A stretch of 64,000 nucleotides of DNA from Methylococcales bacterium (GTDB taxonomy: Bacteria; Pseudomonadota; Gammaproteobacteria; Methylococcales; Methylomonadaceae): positions 1-64,000 of the forward strand of contig JAPLRZ010000060.1 in assembly GCA_026398895.1 (NCBI GenBank). The letters are read 5' to 3'. The first letter of the stretch is position 1. Every line of letters begins with the position of its first letter. Shown one piece after another: positions 5,377 through 40,488 of the stretch. The notes below the pieces were generated by a model, which worked only from the letters and a program-made list of their open reading frames with translations, was not told the DNA's origin and ran no database searches. The position numbers were made by a program, and so were the translations under genes.

Positions 5377-5411
5377 AACACTAGATAACATTGTCAACCA
5401 CAAGTATTATA

Positions 5412-5456
5412 GCGATAATCTTATGAGCTATTGCTATCCTGCCGTGCTTTTCGTAG
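5412..5456 (+). repeat. 45-bp repeat, exact inverted copy at 16550-16594
   Basis: The sequence starting GCGATAATCTTATGAGC and ending CTTTTCGTAG is identical over all 45 bases to the reverse complement of 16550-16594. It lies in the gap between the IS3 fragment and pgi. The match does not extend into the flanks on either side. Confidence 0.9.
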
Positions 5457-15342: not shown

Positions 15343-15561
15343 ATGCAAGCACAAAACTCAAATGCAGCGCATAGTTTATATGTGCTTTACGAAACATTAT
15401 CGAATGATATTCAGCAAAAATTTTTGCAAGAGCTGATGCAAAAACAAGCGGATAAATTAGAAACACTGGCATTATATCTAGCGTGTAAAGAAGCGAAAGA
15501 TGAAAACGAATTTTTAACCGAAGAGGAAACCGCTGATTTTATTAATAGCTTGCCACAATGA
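15343..15561 (+). CDS. Antitoxin of a RelE/ParE-type module
   Basis: 72 residues (MQAQNSNAAHSLYVLYETL), ending TEEETADFINSLPQ. It has an AGGAG ribosome site eight bases before ATG 15343. The stop overlaps the toxin start (ATGA), the usual coupling. It has no recognisable DNA-binding motif. With its toxin frameshifted, it may persist as an orphan antitoxin. Confidence 0.65.
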   Translation: MQAQNSNAAHSLYVLYETLSNDIQQKFLQELMQKQADKLETLALYLACKEAKDENEFLTEEETADFINSLPQ

Positions 15562-15826
15562 ATATAAAAATCAGTAAACGTTTTGTTAAAGATACGCAAG
15601 CTATAACCGACCAACGTATTTTGGCAAAAATAAAAAAATAATTGTTGAAGCGCAAGCCGTTAATTCAGTTTATGAATTATCGAATATAACAGAATTATCT
15701 GGATACCCTTGCTTTTACCGTATTAAATTCGATTATCGCTACCGTATTGGTATTTATTCAGAGGGTGAAAGTGTAGAGTTTTTAAGAGTGGATAATAGAG
15801 AGAATTTTTATAAAAAGTTTCCTTGA
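15558..15826 (+). pseudogene. RelE/ParE-type toxin broken by a frameshift in an A-run
   Basis: From ATG 15558 the frame reads MNIKISKRFVKDTQAI and stops at TAA after AKIKK near 15641. A one-base shift in the A-rich stretch at about 15630-15641 restores a frame that reads IIVEAQAVNSVYEL, then LSGYPCFYRIKFDYRYRIGI and FLRVDNRENFYKKFP to TGA 15826. This is a typical RelE-like C-terminus. Either the toxin is inactivated by slippage at the homopolymer or the base count is an error. Confidence 0.8.
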
Positions 15827-15834
15827 TTCCCTAC

Positions 15835-15945
15835 ACGTTACGCACCCAAGCCAAGCAGCTACAACAACAAGCCGCCGCTGAGTTGGCACACGCAAAACAG
15901 CAGGTTGAAAACAGGGAAAGGCTAAAACCTTTGGTGCTAGTTTAA
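15835..15945 (+). pseudogene. Remnant of a type I specificity (HsdS) C-terminus, copy 2
   Basis: The frame reads TLRTQAKQLQQQ then AAAELAHAKQQVEN, nearly the same as the copy at 14566 (about 70 of 77 bases match by eye). The frame runs into the MITE-like element, which supplies the stop at 15943. The two copies are direct repeats enclosing the PIN and RelE-type modules. Confidence 0.65.
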
Positions 15946-16134
15946 ATTAAGCAGCTAAAACAGTAAGCGATTGTTTTTAATGGTGTCCAATAGCTTTAGC
16001 TAGTGCTGATTTGTAAAAAGCTGACGCTTTTTGACTCCTATTCCCTTCTAATGGCGGTAAACAAAAAAATGTTTTAATCTCAACACATTGATTTATTTTG
16101 TTTATTTTTATGGAGCTAACTAGCACCAAAGGTT
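15926..16134. mobile_element. MITE-like element with 17-bp perfect terminal inverted repeats
   Basis: AACCTTTGGTGCTAGTT at 15926-15942 is the exact reverse complement of 16118-16134. The 209-bp interior has no ORF. TA lies just outside the left end (GGCTA) and AAT outside the right, so target duplication is not clear. The size, perfect ends and lack of coding content fit a miniature inverted-repeat element. It inserted into the hsdS remnant and lies four bases from the stop of the neighbouring minus-strand ORF. Confidence 0.7.
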
Positions 16135-16138
16135 AATA

Positions 16139-16477
16139 TCAAAAGGTTGATGAGTTGTGGGTAATCGTGTGAATTAAGGTGGGGCTTTGTAAGTCGCTGT
16201 ATAAGCGGTCTAAAGCGGCGGTGAATTTAGCGTTTAGGCTGTTGAAGTGTTGTATGTCAAGATAAGGATGGTCTTCACTGGCATCACATAAGCCTTGAAA
16301 AATAGTTTTCCAATACTGTTCTATTTGTTTGACGTGTTCAGTTAGTTGACTGAAAATATTAGTGTGCTGTGCTGTGCTGTGCTGTGCTGTGCTGTGCTGT
16401 GCTGTGCTGTGCTGTGCTGTGCTGTGCTGTGCTGTGCTGTTTCGTGGCATTTCATTAGTGTTTTTCCTTGAAACCAA
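16139..16477 (-). CDS. Unknown 112-residue protein carrying a pentanucleotide repeat
   Basis: Unrecognised. After MVSRKNTNEMPRN the protein has five copies of the pentapeptide STAQH, the translation of a 5-bp DNA repeat. A non-repetitive helical part follows (FSQLTEHVKQIEQYWKTIF, then HPYLDIQHFNSLNAKF). Because the unit is five bases, gain or loss of one copy changes the frame, so the ORF can be switched. It may be the surviving end of a larger gene rather than a full gene: the start lies only 37 bases before the repeat and the stop abuts the MITE. Confidence 0.45.
   Translation of the reverse strand: MVSRKNTNEMPRNSTAQHSTAQHSTAQHSTAQHSTAQHTNIFSQLTEHVKQIEQYWKTIFQGLCDASEDHPYLDIQHFNSLNAKFTAALDRLYSDLQSPTLIHTITHNSSTF
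16366..16440. repeat. Pentanucleotide microsatellite, 15 perfect copies of GCTGT
   Basis: Fifteen uninterrupted GCTGT units (ACAGC on the minus strand) with partial flanking units. It lies near the 5' end of the minus-strand ORF at 16139-16477. Perfect long arrays of this type mutate by strand slippage and are used for phase variation in Neisseria and Haemophilus genes. Confidence 0.95.
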
Positions 16478-16789
16478 GAGTTAGGTGTTGTAGTGGTAGT
16501 TAGTGTAGAACACTGCAATAATAGGTTGCATCATTTTATTGACGACTAGCTACGAAAAGCACGGCAGGATAGCAATAGCTCATAAGATTATCGCAATTTC
16601 ATATATATATTGAGGCTTAAAAATAGTCATTCTATCAATTGCTTTATTTGACTACTTTGATGTGCTAGAGTTGACAGCTGCTATAGCTTCACAAGGTAGC
16701 AAATGAAAGTTATTATCGGTAGGATCACCTTTTACTGGGCTACCGAGTTTTTCATATAAAAATAATTTATCAAACACAGGAAGGGCATT
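16478..16789. other. Intergenic stretch with the second copy of the 45-bp repeat
   Basis: No ORF is visible. It contains the inverted copy (16550-16594) of the 5412-5456 repeat, an AT-rich run (ATATATATATT at about 16605), TTGACA near 16670 without a well-spaced -10, and an AGGAAGG ribosome site just before ATG 16790. Confidence 0.6.
16550..16594 (-). repeat. 45-bp repeat, exact inverted copy of 5412-5456
   Basis: Reads CTACGAAAAGCACGGCAGG onward to TTATCGC on the plus strand. It is the exact reverse complement of 5412-5456 over 45 bases, with no similarity in the flanks. Confidence 0.9.
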
Positions 16790-38562: not shown

Positions 38563-40326
38563 TTAAAAACTTTTGGTTAGTTGAAAATAAGCTTGAGGGG
38601 CTTGTTGATTGGGATCAGATTGCGGTTGTGTGTTCACATCACGCCACGCAAGACTGGTGCGTAAATTAAACCCTGCTGCACCTAACCAGTTGATACCAAA
38701 ACCATAGCCTGTTAGGTGACGGTTGCGTCCTTGACCTGCTAACGGTACGGCATTGATGCGTGAATAGCCTGTATCAATAAAGCTGATGAGTTGAAAATGT
38801 CCAGGAATAGACGCAAATGTGGGTAAGCCGTAACGAGCTTCGCCGTTAAATAACCAGCCTTCATCGCCGCTGCCTTCACCGACAGGATAGGCACGAATGG
38901 CATTGGGTCCACCTAAGCTCATTTGTTCTGAGCTGTCTAGGTTTTTGCTGCCGACTTGACCTGTGAAGTTGCTGTAAAGACTCACATCACCCCAATACTC
39001 ACTGAGTAGATTTTGAGTACGATTGAGTTGCCAGTTGACTTTGTGATAACCGCCGTTGGAGTTGAGTGCTTGGCTGTCAAGAATAGCGGCGGTTTTATCG
39101 GTAAAATAGACTTCTCCTGCTGATATATTCAGAAACCCTTGTGTTAAACCACCAGCGGGAATGAGCTTGTCATATAAACTGCCTGCAAATGAAAAACTCA
39201 TGACGTTAATTTCACGGTCATTATGCGGGTTAATGTAATCAGGGAAACCGATGTTATCTTGCAACCAACGATGCTCATAATGTGCAATCCCTGTTAAGCG
39301 AGCATCACGACTTAAATATAAGGGATGGGTGACGCTAGCTCCGACAGTACGCGCCAAACCATGAGCATCTAATGGTTTAAAACTACGCGCTAAGCTGTAA
39401 TTGAGTTGAGAAAAATTAACCCCTACGCGAGTACCGTAGCCATTAATCGGCGCGTTGTAATCTGCCGAGCCTAGCACGGAATTACCTGTTTCGGTGGTTT
39501 GAATGCGTAGCGATAGTTGATCGCCTAAACCAAACGGATCAACGATGCTTACACCGCCGTCAAAACGATAGTAACCCGTGGAATATAATCCGTAGTTATC
39601 GCTAGCCAGATAGCCACTGACTAAAGGGCCTTCTTTAACTTTAAGACCTAAGGCGGATGTGCCTGTTTTTTTACCAGGTGATAGCACAGCTTTACTTTCA
39701 ATTCCTGGTAAATCATTGATGAGTAAACTTAAATGCCCTAAATCGGCATCAGTGATTAAATCACCCGTTTTAGCGGTATTGAGAAAACGTTGTAGCACGT
39801 TTTTGTTAATGCGCGTTGTACCAATCATTTCAATGGCTTCACCATTCAAATGTGAGTCATCTAAGTGACCTTCGAGAATAACAATTTCAACAATACCGTG
39901 TTTGATGGATTGTGCGGGCAAATAAGCATGAGCCACAATAAAGCCAGCTTGACGATAATGCTCACTGATAATATCGGCAGCCGCTTGTAAATCATCGAAA
40001 CTGACAGGATGACCTTTGTATTTGGTCAATAGTGCTTGTAGCTCGTTATTAGAAAACTGGGTATTACCCGTAAATGAAAAATAGTCTACGGTAATGTGCA
40101 GATCACTTTGGCGTTGCATCGGTGGACGTTGTTGATCGGCATTTTCTATATCGACTTCTGATTGTTTTTTGGGGGGTTCAGGCGGCTTGCGGTTTTCTCG
40201 CATCAGTAGACCAGAATCTGGAAACTGTATTGATTGTATTGGTGGAGCTGCCTCAGCTATGGGTACTAAGCTGGAAAAAAGTAACAATGCGATAGCATTA
40301 AGGGTATATGAATGAGGGGGTGTCAT
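38563..40326 (-). CDS. TpsB-type outer-membrane transporter (ShlB/FhaC family)
   Basis: 587 residues. A signal peptide (TLNAIALLLFSSLVPIAEAA) precedes a proline-rich linker. Two POTRA domains follow: the first begins ITVDYFSFTGNTQFSNNELQ, the second spans about 165-240. The rest is a 16-strand barrel, with the L6-loop-like EQMSLGGPNAIRAYPVGEG and a C-terminal aromatic (YFQLTKSF). It threads the TpsA proteins encoded downstream through the outer membrane. It is first in the minus-strand order TpsB-TpsA-TpsA. Confidence 0.93.
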   Translation of the reverse strand: MTPPHSYTLNAIALLLFSSLVPIAEAAPPIQSIQFPDSGLLMRENRKPPEPPKKQSEVDIENADQQRPPMQRQSDLHITVDYFSFTGNTQFSNNELQALLTKYKGHPVSFDDLQAAADIISEHYRQAGFIVAHAYLPAQSIKHGIVEIVILEGHLDDSHLNGEAIEMIGTTRINKNVLQRFLNTAKTGDLITDADLGHLSLLINDLPGIESKAVLSPGKKTGTSALGLKVKEGPLVSGYLASDNYGLYSTGYYRFDGGVSIVDPFGLGDQLSLRIQTTETGNSVLGSADYNAPINGYGTRVGVNFSQLNYSLARSFKPLDAHGLARTVGASVTHPLYLSRDARLTGIAHYEHRWLQDNIGFPDYINPHNDREINVMSFSFAGSLYDKLIPAGGLTQGFLNISAGEVYFTDKTAAILDSQALNSNGGYHKVNWQLNRTQNLLSEYWGDVSLYSNFTGQVGSKNLDSSEQMSLGGPNAIRAYPVGEGSGDEGWLFNGEARYGLPTFASIPGHFQLISFIDTGYSRINAVPLAGQGRNRHLTGYGFGINWLGAAGFNLRTSLAWRDVNTQPQSDPNQQAPQAYFQLTKSF

Positions 40327-40453: not shown

Positions 40454-40488
40454 GCTAAGTGCTAAGTGCTAAGTGCTAAGTGCTAAGT
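40454..40488. repeat. Heptanucleotide tandem repeat, five copies of GCTAAGT
   Basis: Five uninterrupted GCTAAGT units between prfA and TpsB, about 130 bases upstream of the TpsB start. Copy number could vary and change promoter spacing. Confidence 0.9.

Follow-up and report, generated by a model that had tools for sequence, protein, structure and literature searches.

Does a perfect pentanucleotide array in the early part of a short reading frame mark a gene switched by slippage, and if so, which gene? We addressed this question in the first 64,000 nucleotides of contig JAPLRZ010000060.1 of a Methylococcales bacterium (hereafter the window). The preliminary description had raised the possibility of a phase-variable gene for restriction or specificity that had lost its remaining part. 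The most familiar cases of slippage switching are surface and modification genes in pathogens adapted to a host. The explanation we favor, and hold to be likely, is that the locus represents what remains of the 5´ end of an accessory dynamin-like GTPase gene, in which slippage in the pentanucleotide repeat once switched translation.

The array and its reading frames

The minus strand at 16366-16440 carries 15 whole and perfect units, GCTGT on the plus strand and AGCAC in the sense of the gene, as seen in the raw sequence and in a pattern search of the genome; TRF extends the array to 16363-16440 (period 5, 15.6 copies, 100% match). A perfect 78-bp run of period 5 has a chance expectation of about 7e-40 per window and is not a product of chance. 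The pattern of five units does not occur a second time in the 3.6-Mb assembly. As described before, and as ORF translation confirms, the array lies inside a minus-strand ORF and yields five STAQH repeats. This ORF (16139-16477) starts with TTG and encodes 112 aa. The AGCAC unit is read as STAQH in all three frames and without any stop, so the peptide repeat is uninformative on the frame used.

The TTG is unlikely to be the true start. Alignment of the leaders and the frame table point instead to an ATG at 16453-16455 (ATGAAA behind AAGGAAAAACA; the upstream sequence is also given as AAGGAAAAACACTA), the start codon common to relatives, with a Shine-Dalgarno-like AAGG at 16466-16469 of the minus strand that is conserved in two of them, G003 and G005. 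At 15 copies this ATG is out of frame with the ORF and opens 37 codons only. The longer ORF is in frame with a further, non-orthologous ATG that lies five bases downstream, at 16450; the truncated product (16139-16450, minus strand) would read MPRN(STAQH)5, continue with the ~70 N-terminal residues of a dynamin-like GTPase and stop before the P-loop. The array begins 15 bp past the ATG at 16455 and 10 bp past the one at 16450. When copy number is varied from 10 to 18, the conserved ATG comes into frame at 14 or 17 copies, and at 13 or 16 neither ATG does. The window thus has a perfect tandem array near the 5´ end of a coding region, its unit is not a multiple of three, and copy number sets whether the conserved frame is read. 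The earlier claim that each unit gained or lost shifts the frame holds by arithmetic, and in a relative (G055, below) an array in the corresponding position puts an intact gene out of frame.

Elsewhere in the window, a perfect heptanucleotide array, (GCTAAGT)5 at 40454-40488, is a possible second slippage site; it is intergenic and precedes a two-partner-secretion-like ORF (38563-40326, minus strand) by about 130 bp.

Identity of the truncated gene

A check of the non-repeat part against protein families had been suggested, and Pfam itself returned no match to this part of the window ORF. Homology was found through relatives: the non-repeat part aligns over ~71 residues with the N-terminus of ~800-aa proteins from five Methylococcales genomes of the same family (72, 65, 56, 56 and 45% identity). 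In these homologues the motif TTGTTSSGKST comes right after the aligned part, and they match Pfam Dynamin_N (PF00350; E = 1.4e-12 for G003). By homology, the window ORF is the 5´ stub of a dynamin-like GTPase gene, and its assignment to a restriction or specificity gene has to be abandoned. The remaining part is related in sequence to the Dynamin-like GTPase family (PF00350), but the ORF ends before the P-loop that its relatives possess; the window copy is a remnant of this family, not a member.

Relatives of the gene reside in Methylococcales MAGs, Methylobacter psychrophilus, Crenothrix polyspora and Methylovulum sp., and the gene is patchily distributed, with 8 of the 237 family genomes having it. 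Downstream of the dynamin-like GTPase gene, G003 and G055 have a gene for a 287-305-aa protein and then one for a second dynamin-like protein. A search of viral contigs for GTPase relatives found none, and a search of plasmids gave only a partial match of 34% in a Nostoc plasmid; AGCAC arrays on viral contigs stand in mixed context and were left out of the argument.

A sequence search of solved structures with the dynamin-like protein found no match. In an AlphaFold model of a relative the GTPase domain is poor (pTM 0.43), and the best match of this model in a fold search against the PDB, BDLP, is weak (E 0.045). Our use of the model is therefore confined to the helices at the N-terminus and to the disordered leader. 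The leader segment that houses the repeat is modeled as a disordered tail (pLDDT below 50), and the next two helices are confident. Because the repeat would lie in such a tail, any number of units that keeps the frame could be tolerated.

Leader, array and frame in relatives

The leader ATGAAACGYCACGC...AAAGGAAAAAAATGAAAC together with the start codon is common to the window and its relatives, and the window has lost about 20 bp of it. At the same position of the leader, G055 (Methylovulum sp. STC_68, a MAG) harbors 8 AGCAC units. In this single MAG assembly the frame of the ATG closes after 28 aa and the GTPase frame is unbroken for 783 codons, with no ATG, GTG or TTG start ahead of its P-loop. 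An unbroken frame without a start looks like what is expected of a reversible OFF phase, recent loss being also possible; it might also mark an early stage of gene loss, of the kind seen in Crenothrix polyspora. There (RSM_CP2, L081) the pentamers have diverged (AGCTC, AGCCC) and the gene is out of frame, contains an internal TAA and has a broken 3´ end that runs into unrelated transposase-like sequence; it is evidently a decaying copy. G003 and G040 share the leader and have the gene in frame without any array; the gene can thus do without switching.

We also searched 395 genomes for (AGCAC)4, the census consisting of pattern searches only, and found it in seven. Two of these were set aside: the 26-copy array of G119 is probably foreign DNA, with AGCAT arrays around it and no gene start adjacent, and that of G042 lies at a contig edge. 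The remaining five arrays begin 7-17 bp past the nearest ATG, in genes of four different families. Besides the window stub and the GTPase gene of G055, they are found behind the ATG of a methyltransferase (G191; C101, L041; in frame), behind that of a 242-aa repetitive protein (G209; C98, L043; in frame and open at the contig edge), and in G378 (C64, L039), where 11 units leave a membrane-protein-like frame of 390 codons out of frame with the ATG. The last three genes are homologous neither to each other nor to the dynamin-like gene.

State and surroundings of the window copy

The window ORF ends just short of the P-loop, and a MITE lies directly beyond this 3´ break (15926-16138, with 17-bp terminal inverted repeats at 15926-15942 and 16118-16134). 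The rest of the gene was sought in the same genome and only the stub was found, which bears out the earlier suggestion that the remainder was lost. Neither was there an orthologue of the second dynamin-like protein; the best match, with 29% identity, is a paralogue. About 100 codons are left and the GTPase body is absent. Judged from its sequence, the window gene is a dead 5´ stub with nothing functional left to switch; phase variation, as originally proposed for this copy, is an idea that we retain for its relatives and ancestor only.

The upstream region of the minus strand is damaged as well. A putative -10 box at 16502-16507 reads TACACT (TATACT in G003, G055 and G005), and a palindrome at 16519-16533, a possible operator, has lost the form TGACAcaaccTGTCA that it has in G003 and G055. 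Compared with G003, substitutions in the stub are mostly synonymous (dN 0.12, dS 0.57, dN/dS about 0.2), which suggests that constraint probably acted on the gene during most of its existence and that the truncation came rather late.

The ~210-bp MITE has about 20 long copies in the genome, 83-98% identical and bounded by terminal inverted repeats AACCTTTGGTGCTAGTT. On its other side, an intact antitoxin-like ORF (15343-15561) lies ahead of a RelE-like toxin frame (15558-15826) that, by eye, appears frameshifted near an A run at about 15632-15638.

The position of the remnant also tells something of its past. A 48-bp element (16550-16597, plus strand), recognized by comparison with relatives, marks the junction between the dynamin remnant and a conserved copper-type locus. 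G001, G002 and G003 have the pgi gene next to the copper-type locus in divergent orientation, with one 48-bp element shared between the two. In the window a distance of 9 kb separates them, each has a separate copy of the element, and the dynamin remnant lies at one junction; the two copies (5409-5456 and 16550-16597) are inverted, 98% identical and flank an 11-kb stretch. Given the single element of the relatives, this stretch marks a rearrangement or insertion. This junction is found in G005 as well, where the dynamin leader is shorter, and G004 retains a promoter trace there (local score 55, whereas 500 shuffles reached at most 35). On the simplest reading, the operon arrived at, or was moved to, this junction before the lineages split and broke at a different point in each of them. 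Near the copper-type locus, G004 further encodes what by eye is a 1022-aa Cas9-like protein (L094, 633-3701), with broken type I methyltransferase-like pieces beside its gene.

A possible model and its alternatives

We propose the following course of events, in which the slippage itself, its reversibility and the order of steps are our reconstruction. The repeat follows the start codon and precedes the first helix, a place where slippage would switch translation: gain or loss of one AGCAC unit would shift the frame. In frame, the repeat would add a disordered STAQH tail in front of the neck helices and the GTPase domain; out of frame, translation would stop within about 25-40 codons. In the lineage of the window, the operon would have come beside the pgi/copper-type locus and decayed later, when everything downstream of codon ~100 was lost, with the MITE at the break. 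The array would survive as a relic that may still slip, with no enzyme to control.

The most serious alternative is that the array expanded neutrally and by accident in a dying gene, slippage in a useless leader never having been a switch. The gene of the window is dead, that of Crenothrix, likewise out of frame, is decaying, and G003 and G040 manage without an array, all of which would fit. Such an accident hardly explains why G055 retains a clean frame of 783 codons with the array at the same place, or why each of the five well-placed AGCAC arrays from the 395 genomes stands right behind an ATG, in four gene families. We thus regard neutral expansion as unlikely, though it deserves to be kept in mind.

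Much less probable is that the stub itself works as a short protein of about 100 aa made of two helices and a repeat tail, such as a dominant-negative neck fragment, and varies in phase between two starts. The frame is indeed open at 15 copies from the ATG at 16450 and at 14 or 17 from that at 16455, and the predominance of synonymous substitutions would suit a functional product. But the promoter-like motifs are damaged, the genome has no intact dynamin-like partner of the operon, and the break adjoins a MITE while sister lineages are broken at other points. Least credible of all is the original restriction reading. It could draw on a GmrSD-type gene and toxin-antitoxin-like genes nearby, and on the occurrence of CACAG (AGCAC rotated) in a type III mod gene, but the residual ORF is homologous to Dynamin_N GTPases and to nothing of restriction type; we found no methyltransferase, specificity or restriction domain in it.

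Beyond the window, the dynamin-pair operon of the relatives appears to be under a pentanucleotide switch. A wider idea, which we put forward tentatively and consider doubtful, is that start-proximal AGCAC arrays switch a whole group of Methylococcales genes, among them a mobile operon with the dynamin pair, which would serve in phage defence and would have been lost repeatedly, leaving a fossil in the window.

Comparison with known systems

The main interest of the locus rests with the relatives rather than with the stub: a dynamin-like GTPase operon in free-living methane oxidizers, with one relative intact but out of frame and others decayed. Tetra- and pentanucleotide contingency loci are exemplified by mod and lic of H. 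influenzae and by opa and modB of Neisseria. The dynamin-like locus resembles them in a unit not divisible by three near the start codon and in several ATGs in different frames. It differs in that theirs are surface or modification genes of host-adapted bacteria, whereas ours is an accessory gene of free-living methane oxidizers. With respect to the repeat itself, the closest case is the type III mod gene of Pasteurella (Mannheimia) haemolytica, with CACAG repeats and a proposed slippage switch (Ryan and Lo 1999, as listed in PMC5149525). The unit is identical to AGCAC up to rotation, but that gene encodes a DNA methyltransferase in another bacterial family, and the window copy is the stub of a dynamin-like GTPase.

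According to PMC6104087 (Cj-DLP1/2), bacterial dynamin-like proteins are commonly paired in operons. Operons with two neighboring dynamin-family genes are described for LeoA/B/C of ETEC (PMC4159319), for Cj-DLP1/2 and for Eleos/Dynamins (PMC11811056); G003 and G055 share this layout, with the difference that a gene for a small protein lies between their two GTPase genes. The accessible text of the three papers contains no mention of a repeat switch on these pairs. Dynamin-type systems (Eleos/Dynamins) are among the phage defences listed in PMC11811056, and DynA of Bacillus subtilis, a dynamin-family GTPase, delays phage release (PMC8844932). DynA is a single two-headed protein, and the second protein of our operon matches its model only partially and far below the cut-off. 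The best match in a defence library, LeoBC of PADLOC, is weak (20-23 bits; E = 9e-6 and 23 bits for the G003 relative), and we do not claim membership in that system. A role of the dynamin-pair operon in phage defence is nevertheless plausible.

Among titles and abstracts of the open-licence literature we found no report of phase variation in methanotrophs or of dynamins, nor, in the accessible part of that literature, of an AGCAC/CACAG repeat on a dynamin operon. If switching is confirmed, then membrane-remodelling, possibly defence, genes and environmental methanotrophs would join the known range of contingency loci, and the relatives would provide a series that can be read from switchable to dead.
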